Below the pieces are notes generated by a model, which saw only the letters and a list, made by a program, of their open reading frames with translations, ran no database searches and had not been told where the DNA came from. Positions 25,282 through 29,040 of a stretch of 64,000 bases of DNA are shown in pieces. Within the stretch, counting starts at the first letter, position 1, and the number at the start of each line of letters is the position of its first letter. This DNA comes from Bacteroidota bacterium. GTDB taxonomy: Bacteria > Bacteroidota > Bacteroidia > NS11-12g > UBA9320. The translations under genes were made by a program, and so were the position numbers. The stretch is from positions 62,001-126,000 of the forward strand of contig CANIKO010000003.1 of NCBI GenBank assembly GCA_947468275.1, read 5' to 3'.

Positions 25282-25320
25282 ATACCACAAATCAAACAAA
25301 TACTGCAAAAATCGGAGCCT

Positions 25321-25367
25321 TTGACCACCTTTCGCCGGCCTCACAAAGACTGGCGATAGGTGGTCAA
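25321..25367. repeat. Strong inverted repeat in the gap downstream of mnmE
   Basis: TTGACCACCT (25321-25330) pairs with AGGTGGTCAA (25358-25367), and the stem continues inward with TTCGCC/GGCGAT apart from one mismatch. There is no T-run on either side, so it does not look like a simple terminator. It has the size and form of a REP- or MITE-like element and lies at the left edge of the 25.5-29 kb cluster. Confidence 0.65.
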
Positions 25368-25545
25368 GTGAACCAGCGTTTGCACTAAATTAGCAAAGTG
25401 TTAGAATTGTTGAAAATGATTTAATATTGCTGATATTATAAATACGTGCCTTTTTGGTTTCTCTTAATCCTATAATTTAATAAAAACAGAATTTAAGTTA
25501 GTGAAAATGTGCCAAAACCATTTTTAATATTTTTTAGTTTATACT

Positions 25546-26709
25546 ATGTTTTCAAATGAAACTGTCAATTTACCATTACTAAAGCAACGTGCGTATAATT
25601 TGAGATGGGCGACAGTAAATAAAGGTGTTATTCCTTTGACAGCTGCTGATCCGGATTTTCCTTTTGCTCCAGAAATTGCGGAGGCGATTTGTTCTTATTC
25701 AAAAGACAGGTATTTTTCATATGCTCATCCGGAAGGACTTCCTGAATTTAAAGAAAGTATTGCCAATTATTTTCATCGAAAACGCAATGTTCCTGTTTCT
25801 CCAGCCTTTACCTTTCCAATTGATAGTGCGGCATTTGGAATTTATTTGACCTGTAAGGCTTTTTTGAAAAAGGGAGATGAAGCAATTATATTTGATCCTG
25901 TTGATTTTCTTTTTAGATATTCAATTGAGAAGGTGGAGGCAACTGCAATTCCATTCTCAACTCCTCCGGGAAGTATACATGTCGATTTTCAGAATTTAGA
26001 AAAACTGATTAACAACAATACAAAGATGATTTGTTTGTGCAATCCTTTAAATCCAACGGGGAAAGTATTTACCAAACAAGAATTATTGCAATTAGGGACT
26101 ATTGCTTGTAAATATAATTTAATAGTGTTGTCTGATGAAATCTGGAGTGATATTGTTTTTGAACCCAATGTTTTTACAAGTATAGCTTCTTTAAATCAGG
26201 ATATTAGAAATAATACCATCACAATCACTGGATTTAGTAAGTCTTATGGATTAGCAGGATTAAGAATTGGAGCAGTTATTGCCCACAATGAATCTCATTT
26301 TCTGAAATTAATGGACGCCTCACTTCATAATTCTACAATACATGGGGCTAATATTTTATCTCAAATTGCAGCAACAGCTGCTTTGACGCAATGCGAGTAT
26401 TGGTTAGATAATTTTTTGGTTCATTTAACTAGAATGCGAGATATTACGGTAAGGGAATTAAATTCAATTCCAAATTTCGAATGTATTGCACCTGAAGGTT
26501 GTTATGTTGCATTTACAAATATTAAGGCCACTCAAAAGACAAGTCAAGAAATTCAAGATATTCTTTTAAAGGAAGCAAAAGTATTAGTTGTTCCGGGATT
26601 AAAGCAGTGGTTTGGTGATGGTGCTGAAGGTTATATTAGAATGAGTTTTGCCACATCTGAAGAAATATTGGCGGATGCATTATCAAGAATTAAAAAGGTA
26701 ATGCTATGA
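25546..26709 (+). CDS. PLP-dependent class I/II aminotransferase
   Basis: Fold-type I PLP enzyme of 387 residues. The schiff-base lysine is Lys232 in TGFSKSYGLAGLRIG; NPLNPTGKVF is the aminotransferase Asn-Pro-x-Asn-Pro-Thr-Gly motif; SDEIWSDIVF supplies the Asp/Tyr-type contacts to the PLP ring, and RMSF near the C-terminus has the carboxylate-binding Arg. Similarity to aspartate/aromatic aminotransferases is general, so the substrate is not readable. It overlaps the following FAD/DsbA gene by four bases (ATGA), so the two are translationally coupled. No palindromic or promoter box match was found immediately upstream. Confidence 0.88.
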   Translation: MFSNETVNLPLLKQRAYNLRWATVNKGVIPLTAADPDFPFAPEIAEAICSYSKDRYFSYAHPEGLPEFKESIANYFHRKRNVPVSPAFTFPIDSAAFGIYLTCKAFLKKGDEAIIFDPVDFLFRYSIEKVEATAIPFSTPPGSIHVDFQNLEKLINNNTKMICLCNPLNPTGKVFTKQELLQLGTIACKYNLIVLSDEIWSDIVFEPNVFTSIASLNQDIRNNTITITGFSKSYGLAGLRIGAVIAHNESHFLKLMDASLHNSTIHGANILSQIAATAALTQCEYWLDNFLVHLTRMRDITVRELNSIPNFECIAPEGCYVAFTNIKATQKTSQEIQDILLKEAKVLVVPGLKQWFGDGAEGYIRMSFATSEEILADALSRIKKVML

Positions 26710-28634
26710 AAGTTGTAATTCTAGGAGGGGGAATAGCAGGGCTTACAGCTGGAATTTTGCTTAAAAATAAAAATTGGGAAGTTGTCATCAACGAAAAAGT
26801 GGATGGTGTTTTTAGTAGAGGTCATGCTTTTTTAATGAATTCGCAAGGATTGTCTGTTTTAAATGAATTGTCAGAATCTTCATCGATGGGTTTGAATAAA
26901 AAAAGAATTGATATATTCAGTTTAAAACGACCTAACGGCAATGAGTTAATTAAAATTAAATTGGATCCATGGTTTTGTATCAAGCGAATTGATTTGATGT
27001 CTTATTTAAAAAATCACTTTCCTCAAGAAAACCTGAAAGGGGGAAGACAATTCTCTCATTTTATTTATGAAAAAAATAAAGCTACTGCGGCTGTTTTTGC
27101 AAATGGCGAAGTAGAATACGGCGATCTTTTTATAGGAGCCGATGGAAGTAATTCTGAAGTTCGAAAGACTATTTTTGGGGAAACAAATTATACGCCTATC
27201 GAAGTCAAAGAAATTGTTGGAGTTTCTAAAAAAAGGATTGACTCCATTGATGAAATGACCATTTTTCAGAAAATTCAGGATGAAGAAAAAGGATTATCCT
27301 TTGGATTCATTCCTACCTTCAATGATGAATCGGTTTGGTTTATACAATATGACTCTAAATTTGTTGAAAAAAATCAGTCAGATAGTAAAGATTTAAAGTC
27401 ATTCTGCTATTCGATGCTTGAAAAATTTCCAAGAGACGTTAAAGAGGTTCTGGATGAAAATGATTTTAAAAGCACCTATATATGGAACACAAGAGATTTT
27501 AATTTATTACCGAGTTTCAGTAGCGATAATGTTGTTTTGATAGGTGATGCAGCTCATTTAGCCTTGCCTTTTACAAGTGCTGGAACGACAAATGCTATTT
27601 TAGATGCAAAGATTTTAGTCGATAGTTTAGAAGAATTTAATGATTATTCTAAGGCTTTCAAAAATTACTATGCTTTAAGATCAGAAAGCATACGCGAGCA
27701 TATTGCTCAAGGAAGGGAAGTAAAAGAACTTTTTCTTTATCCAAAAAATCATAGTGAACGAGATTTTTTATTGCCATTAGTATTTGAAAGCAATAAAATT
27801 AAATCACCCATATGCAAGCCTTTAAAAATATTATATTTTACAGATCCTATTTGTTCAACATGTTGGTTAATTCAACCCATATTAAGAAAACTAAAATTGG
27901 AATATGATGATTATTTAGATATTGACTATCGAATGGGAGGCTTATTGCCTTCTTGGAAAGATTATAATAAAGGTATTATAAAAGAACCGTCTGATGCTGC
28001 CAAACATTGGGAGGATATGAGTTCTTTATACAAGACACCTTTAGACGGTGATGTATGGATTGAAGATCCTTTAGACTCCTCATACCCCCCTTCAATTGCC
28101 TTTAAAGCGGCTCAACTACAAAATAAAGACAAGGCGGTTTTGTTTTTGAGAAGAATTAAAGAAATGGTTTTTTTAGAAAAAAAGAATATAACTAAAAGAA
28201 AATTTATTGAGAATGCCGCACTTAGTTGTGGACTTGATTCTGCAGTTCTCTTAAAAGATATTCAAACAAATGCCATTGATCTTTTTAAAGAAGATTTAGA
28301 ACTAGCCCAAACTTATGGAATAACGTCTTTTCCAACTCTTCTGTTTTCAAATGTTTCAGACAAAAAAATAACGTTGAAAGGAATTCAGTCCTATGGTAAG
28401 TTTGAAGAAATTATAAAAGAGTTTATCCCAAATGTTGTAAAAAAGAAAATAGACATTGACCCATTATCTCTTTTTAAACTTTATAATATTATGACTGAAG
28501 ATGAATTTTCTTTTTTAACGGATATAGATATGCAAACCTCTCACAAATTGCTTTTATCGCTTTATAAAAATGGCGAAATAGAAAAGGTTGAAAATAAGAA
28601 TGGTTTTGTTTGGAAATATATGCCATTGCTGTAA
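26706..28634 (+). CDS. FAD-dependent monooxygenase fused to a DsbA-like thiol-disulfide domain
   Basis: 642 residues. Residues about 1-345 form a PHBH/TetX-like FAD monooxygenase: the GGGIAG dinucleotide fold (G7-G12), an Asp-Gly motif in GADGSN, and GDAAHLALPFTSAG (Gly280-Asp281), the second FAD contact. Residues about 370-585 form a DsbA-family (FrnE/SpxH-like) domain with the redox motif CSTC (Cys383, Cys386) and a helical insertion; SFPTLLF supplies the cis-proline. Residues about 590-642 look like a small winged-helix end. No signal peptide, so cytosolic. The fusion is intact and without frameshift. A natural-product tailoring role is inferred from context only. Confidence 0.85.
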   Translation: MKVVILGGGIAGLTAGILLKNKNWEVVINEKVDGVFSRGHAFLMNSQGLSVLNELSESSSMGLNKKRIDIFSLKRPNGNELIKIKLDPWFCIKRIDLMSYLKNHFPQENLKGGRQFSHFIYEKNKATAAVFANGEVEYGDLFIGADGSNSEVRKTIFGETNYTPIEVKEIVGVSKKRIDSIDEMTIFQKIQDEEKGLSFGFIPTFNDESVWFIQYDSKFVEKNQSDSKDLKSFCYSMLEKFPRDVKEVLDENDFKSTYIWNTRDFNLLPSFSSDNVVLIGDAAHLALPFTSAGTTNAILDAKILVDSLEEFNDYSKAFKNYYALRSESIREHIAQGREVKELFLYPKNHSERDFLLPLVFESNKIKSPICKPLKILYFTDPICSTCWLIQPILRKLKLEYDDYLDIDYRMGGLLPSWKDYNKGIIKEPSDAAKHWEDMSSLYKTPLDGDVWIEDPLDSSYPPSIAFKAAQLQNKDKAVLFLRRIKEMVFLEKKNITKRKFIENAALSCGLDSAVLLKDIQTNAIDLFKEDLELAQTYGITSFPTLLFSNVSDKKITLKGIQSYGKFEEIIKEFIPNVVKKKIDIDPLSLFKLYNIMTEDEFSFLTDIDMQTSHKLLLSLYKNGEIEKVENKNGFVWKYMPLL

Positions 28635-28719
28635 ATAGTATTTTTTTTATTTAGCAAGTAACTGTTTAAGGATATTTCTATAATCTTTTAAAGACATACC
28701 TTGGTCATGAATTATTGCA

Positions 28720-29040
28720 ATGTCAAAAATTGAATTAAATGAAGAGCGACAAATAGCCGAGGACCGAGCAAGGGTCTTTATAGCGAAGCATACTTGGAAA
28801 TTTGCAAAAACAATGCCTTGGGTTCCTCACTTTTATTTAGCAAAAGACTATTTGTCTGATTTGGATAAATCAGAATTTCAATGGTTTATTGAACAATCAC
28901 GAATTTATGGTAAAATGATGGTATGGGAAAATAAACCGCCGAAGCCTTATTGGTTTATTGATGAATGGAAATATTGGACCATGATGGATGATCCGATTGA
29001 AATAGAGAATATTTTAAATAGGGCAGAACATCATATTTAA
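28720..29040 (+). CDS. Small tryptophan-rich protein of unknown function
   Basis: 106 residues, no signal peptide or membrane segment. It has seven Trp and many Tyr/Phe, mostly in a helical stretch (TWKFAKTMPWVPHFYLAK, then WFIEQSRIY and KPYWFIDEWKYWTMM). It lies 85 bases after the FAD/DsbA gene in the same direction and may be part of the same transcript. No family is recognised. Aromatic-rich small proteins can be substrate carriers or binding proteins, but that is speculation. Confidence 0.72.
   Translation: MSKIELNEERQIAEDRARVFIAKHTWKFAKTMPWVPHFYLAKDYLSDLDKSEFQWFIEQSRIYGKMMVWENKPPKPYWFIDEWKYWTMMDDPIEIENILNRAEHHI

Follow-up and report, generated by a model that had tools for sequence, protein, structure and literature searches.

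The locus analyzed here raises the question of whether three adjacent genes of a Bacteroidota bacterium form one functional unit, and what such a unit would do. The window, that is, the whole 64,000-nucleotide stretch of DNA that was analyzed, carries them on the forward strand: a gene for a PLP-dependent aminotransferase-fold enzyme of 387 aa (25546..26709), a fusion gene of 642 aa (26706-28634), and a gene for a Trp-rich protein of 106 aa (28720..29040), whose start is 85 bases past the stop of the fusion gene. The preliminary description of this DNA had proposed a three-gene cluster lying between two housekeeping genes and near a palindromic element, and the layout itself was reproduced. 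The three ORFs have the coordinates given there, and the genes on either side were identified by eye as MnmE/TrmE-like and PyrF-like. The four-base overlap ATGA (26706..26709, + strand), in which the stop of the aminotransferase ORF and the start of the fusion ORF coincide, was also recognized there; the same −4 nt overlap is seen at most homologous loci, and the two genes are predicted to be translationally coupled through it. An imperfect palindrome is indeed present at 25301..25387, in the gap that separates the MnmE-like gene from the aminotransferase gene, as a single site in the window. It may be a terminator-like or a repeat element. Comparison of GC content and codon usage with the flanks, which had been proposed as a check, revealed a close match. 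GC content of the cluster is 31-34%, versus 35.6 ± 2.8% in the remaining genes of the stretch, and the codon usage of the cluster genes agrees with that of the window; thus, there is no foreign signal in composition.

The Trp-rich gene was considered as a third member of the unit and rejected, as it is missing at the other fusion loci and its relatives are found in viral contigs. No homolog is present at any other fusion locus, and a search of 295 further genomes sampled from the phylum gave only one weak match. A 33% match is encoded by a Butyrivibrio plasmid, and relatives with 75% and 63% identity are found in four viral contigs of IMG/VR, between phage-type genes. This distribution indicates that the 106-aa gene is a passenger of a phage protein family, outside the unit. 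At L211-L214, the relatives are in a conserved run of phage genes near genes which, by eye, are glycosyltransferase-, methyltransferase-, and PAPS-reductase-like. The expectation that the same gene order would recur in unrelated lineages of Bacteroidota was borne out for the aminotransferase and the fusion, while it failed for the Trp-rich gene; only two of the three genes constitute a unit.

This two-gene unit, an aminotransferase with a fusion of a FAD monooxygenase and a YjbH/SpxH-like protein, was found from about 20 loci of Bacteroidota belonging to several families and orders. The number is approximate because L054 and G665 are the same genome counted twice. The genome sample corresponds to 1,995 look-ups, repeats included. 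Full-length fusions are encoded in genomes of the same order (G005, G038, G070, G072, and G074), in genomes of the same class (G261, G679, G589, G519, G701, G665, and G669), and in named MAGs, such as those of Flavipsychrobacter and Chitinophagaceae. Full-length homologs at about 20 other loci rule out an assembly artefact as the origin of the fusion. The aminotransferase gene adjoins the FAD gene at every locus found, and it is directly upstream of the fusion wherever the contig extends far enough. In the class sample, aminotransferase matches (e-value ≤1e-75) and FAD matches (e-value ≤1e-25) were detected in the identical 9 of 295 genomes; these genomes are related, so no probability is attached to the co-occurrence, but the pairing has no exception. 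In genomic terms, the pairing of the aminotransferase with the FAD domain is obligate. No description of this architecture was found in open-licence papers; the families are known, and their arrangement is new. In the homologous loci read, no conserved biosynthetic neighbours were observed. The suggestion of a small uncharacterised pathway or a thiol-linked oxidation system is thus reasonable for the first two genes, given their recurrent pairing, while a natural-product pathway is not supported. A histidine kinase of the GAF/PAS type, together with a single-domain response regulator, is encoded directly upstream of the aminotransferase at three loci only, one of them unfused (L049:3566-5991, L051:4163-6560, and L060:4836-6733), and not in the window.

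The fusion is a single unbroken frame. As stated in the preliminary description, it is an uninterrupted 642-residue protein with a FAD-monooxygenase part, a thioredoxin-fold part, and a winged-helix-like tail, and this composition is supported by Pfam and by an AlphaFold2 model built from 40 family sequences (mean pLDDT 89, pTM 0.85). Residues 1-345 (26706..27740) include a match to FAD_binding_3 (PF01494, residues 2-309), and the N-terminal half of the model resembles HpxO with a TM-score of 0.81 in Foldseek. The residues G7, G9, G12, D146, G147, G280, and D281, which correspond to the GxGxxG, DG, and GD motifs, are invariant among 19 of 19 fusions. The N-terminal half is thus predicted to adopt the class A flavin monooxygenase fold. 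It shares the fold (TM-scores of 0.7-0.8) and the FAD motifs with HpxO urate hydroxylase, PRK06753, 6-hydroxynicotinate 3-monooxygenase, and tetracycline destructases, but the identity is 18-22% and the scores are far below all curated cut-offs. Unlike these monooxygenases, the protein bears a YjbH domain and has an obligate aminotransferase partner. Tetracycline destructase or Tet(X)-type resistance was rejected as an annotation, with 63 bits against a curated cut-off of 550 and 36 bits against 750.

Class A monooxygenases hydroxylate aromatic acids. The unit could accordingly serve an aromatic amino acid pathway, in which tryptophan- or kynurenine-type transamination is combined with aromatic hydroxylation and the SpxH domain is passive. 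A tryptophanase gene upstream of the distant unfused pair in five genomes, all from a single genus, fits this idea. In G772, from another genus, the pair has no tryptophanase gene within the 16 kb that was read, and the gene is missing from all fusion loci that were read. The tryptophanase link was dismissed as synteny of one genus only. A passive partner also leaves the occurrence of two fusion orders, described below, unexplained. The aromatic pathway is improbable, the least probable of the functions considered here.

A linker (residues 346-369; 27741..27812), which is variable in the alignment and has pLDDT values <50 at residues 362-366, connects the monooxygenase to the C-terminal half. 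The thioredoxin/DsbA-fold part of this half (residues 370-575; 27813..28430) matches PF13743 at residues 377-567 with 167 bits (cut-off 27; e-value 3.5e-49). The best PDB sequence match is Geobacillus YjbH (6ghb), aligned from residues 370-639 to chain residues 24-293 with the e-value 1.9e-38, and the model of this half is superimposed on 6ghb_B with a TM-score of 0.91 over 272 columns in Foldseek. The C-terminal domain (residues 586-638; 28461..28619), with the predicted secondary structure H-H-H-E-E, is included in the alignment, which reaches YjbH chain residue 293. Sequence and model together indicate that the C-terminal half is a full-length homolog of YjbH/SpxH, and the winged-helix tail noted before corresponds to the C-terminal domain of YjbH. 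The FrnE-type DsbA label proposed before does not hold: PF01323 (DSBA) scores 29 bits versus 167 bits for PF13743. FrnE/DsbA-type oxidoreductases share the thioredoxin fold and the CXXC motif with this half, but they differ in the C-terminal winged-helix-like domain, which matches YjbH.

The CXXC motif is CSTC in the window (residues 383-386; 27852..27863), and among the fused SpxH halves, 18 of 21 keep CS[TSN]C, the three losses belonging to one lineage. The cis-Pro PT of the thioredoxin fold is invariant in the 19 fusions aligned. The fusion has no signal peptide in its sequence and is therefore predicted to be cytosolic. It also differs from standalone SpxH proteins of Bacteroidota in lacking their Cys-containing N-terminal segment NPLLCDPETGxCEIP. 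The cysteines of YjbH are needed in Listeria and dispensable in Bacillus and Staphylococcus (PMC7253607), and thus the conservation of CXXC is only suggestive of thiol chemistry.

SpxH is linked to the monooxygenase in three ways: a C-terminal fusion at about 20 loci, an N-terminal fusion in G674, and an adjacent gene in one lineage. In G674, an N-terminal SpxH domain precedes the FAD domain, and the aminotransferase gene follows. In the aminotransferase tree, this reversed locus (L171) is grouped with the unfused clade in which the FAD gene precedes the aminotransferase gene (support 100/99), while in the SpxH tree it joins the fused clade on a long branch. The domain order and the aminotransferase tree favour an independent second fusion; the SpxH tree, with its long branch, gives no proof. 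No second reversed fusion was found in a further 373 genomes.

The adjacent-gene arrangement accompanies the decay of the fused domain. A standalone SpxH gene, intact and with CSSC, adjoins the unit in G005, G589, and L052, and the fused copy in these has no second cysteine of CXXC. In G602, their sister, only remnants of the fused domain are recognizable (residues 6-37 and 224-271), and an intact SpxH gene is adjacent. These losses are in one lineage and are counted as one event. They read as if the neighbouring SpxH gene relieves the fused domain of its job. No SpxH was found anywhere in the genomes of Pedobacter L105 (G743), G317, and G372, despite the presence of the aminotransferase and FAD pair. 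The dithiol domain is thus dispensable in some lineages.

The unit has moved horizontally. PyrF of the window genome is 91% identical to that of G005, from the same genus, and 57% identical to that of G679, from another family. The aminotransferase, FAD, and SpxH parts show the opposite tendency, with identities of 74/56/57% to G005 and 86/79/85% to G679, which contradict the housekeeping gene and indicate horizontal transfer. Only one of six sampled relatives of the same genus carries the unit. Between the window and G005, only pyrF and the sequence that follows can be aligned at the locus, and the alignment shows no clean empty site. At L175 (G589), the FAD and SpxH parts are all but identical to those of G005, and the aminotransferase clusters with that of G519, a pattern that suggests recombination within the unit.

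What remains is the chemistry. The aminotransferase belongs to PF00155 (e-value 1.1e-51). It has the fold, the catalytic Lys (SKS motif), and the substrate-binding Arg in common with PatB/MalY C-S lyases and related class I aminotransferases. The nearest curated model is the PatB C-S lyase (TIGR04350), and near PDB matches include cysteine-S-conjugate beta-lyases. The PLP enzyme could thus be a C-S lyase, and the unit would then cleave cysteine conjugates or build a sulfur-containing small molecule, with oxidation by the monooxygenase, while the thiol that is released would be taken care of by the dithiol domain. Enzymes of these kinds, a PLP lyase, a flavoenzyme, and a thioredoxin fold, serve in the pathways of dithiol natural products, for example gliotoxin and tropodithietic acid. 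The PatB score, however, is 225 bits, under the cut-off of 340 bits, and transaminase models score almost equally. The motif DPVDFLF is invariant in 23 of 23 partner aminotransferases, and its Asp is aligned with a Tyr of PatB, which we take to be the residue stacking on PLP; the aromatic stacking residue of PatB/MalY is replaced by Asp in all of them. The lack of conserved biosynthetic neighbours noted above also argues against such a pathway, and a C-S lyase function appears unlikely.

The reading favoured here, with a probability of roughly 45%, is that the mobile two-gene unit provides two enzymes of a cytosolic pathway and, tethered to one of them, a dithiol module. In this pathway, the PLP enzyme with its aminotransferase fold and the class A flavin monooxygenase would act sequentially on the same amino-acid-derived molecule. 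The YjbH/SpxH-like domain would be the dithiol module, an accessory to the monooxygenase. It may reduce or trap an oxidized or electrophilic product of quinone, sulfenate, or disulfide type, or it may keep the monooxygenase reduced. In its favour are the gene coupling, the exceptionless pairing of the two enzymes, the three kinds of linkage to SpxH, the conserved CXXC, FAD, and cis-Pro motifs, the lack of Spx/ArsC-family proteins in G038 and G074, and the predicted cytosolic location. Against it speak the genomes that have the enzyme pair and no SpxH, and the YjbH proteins of Bacillus and Staphylococcus with their dispensable cysteines. This reading is placed ahead of both the C-S lyase pathway and a protease adaptor.

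In the adaptor explanation, the YjbH-like half would serve ClpXP as an adaptor while being tethered to the monooxygenase. Oxygen, redox state, or a metabolite would be sensed by the flavin domain, which would gate client delivery, or the adaptor would set the turnover of the enzyme pair. YjbH/SpxH of Bacillus and Geobacillus (PDB 6ghb and 6gho), the ClpXP adaptor for Spx, shares the whole C-terminal half with 28% identity and the CXXC motif. The homology is full-length, including the C-terminal domain, to a protein crystallised with Spx, and a Spirosoma homolog is named "ClpXP adapter SpxH family protein" by NCBI. In Listeria, YjbH has contacts with at least nine proteins (PMC7253607), which makes clients beyond Spx plausible. 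One ArsC/Spx-family protein is encoded in G000, but no PF03960 protein was found in the fusion genomes G038 (99% complete), G070, G072, and G074 (96%). Spx/ArsC is thereby ruled out as an obligate client, and Spx delivery is not the general role. Its absence from G038 and G074 favours an enzyme-linked role over Spx delivery; it bears on delivery and leaves the homology to YjbH untouched. The fused domain also differs from the adaptor in its position behind a flavin monooxygenase. Moreover, CXXC is conserved, although the adaptors of Bacillus and Staphylococcus do without it (PMC7253607), and many standalone relatives in Bacteroidota have a lipoprotein-type signal peptide. A tethered adaptor is about as unlikely as the C-S lyase. 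A shade more doubtful is an enzyme-adaptor chimera, whose YjbH domain delivers or releases a ClpXP client depending on the redox state or product of the enzyme. If true, it would extend YjbH-type control of proteolysis past Firmicutes and past Spx.

For the pathway with a tethered dithiol module, the wider meaning concerns YjbH itself. YjbH has hitherto been known as a protease adaptor of Firmicutes with thioredoxin cysteines of disputed use (PMC7253607). Here, its fold is tied to one flavoenzyme, fused in either domain order or supplied in trans, in a different phylum and in genomes that lack Spx. This suggests an older or wider role of the family as a thiol partner of an oxidizing enzyme, for which the compact two-gene unit is a test case.

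Several features of SpxH relatives were observed besides. The 5′ ends of standalone SpxH genes of Bacteroidota encode a stretch resembling a signal peptide, in most cases with a lipobox-like Cys (L004, L005, L024-L026, L028, L029, L031-L034, L036, L038, L040-L044, L165, L191, L194, and L195). After this stretch, an internal Met is located 3-9 residues ahead of the conserved NPLLCDPETGxCEIP, and the relatives without a signal peptide (L030, L035, L037, and L039) begin at that Met. Two conserved translation starts, giving exported and cytosolic forms, are suggested by this pattern. Standalone SpxH genes are flanked divergently by a regulator that, by eye, resembles the HxlR family (L138:5005-5364, L139:6924-7241, and L141:6941-7258), a family that includes redox and electrophile sensors. 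A distant DsbA-like protein at L048 has the motif CDKESGVC at the C-terminus instead of the N-terminus.
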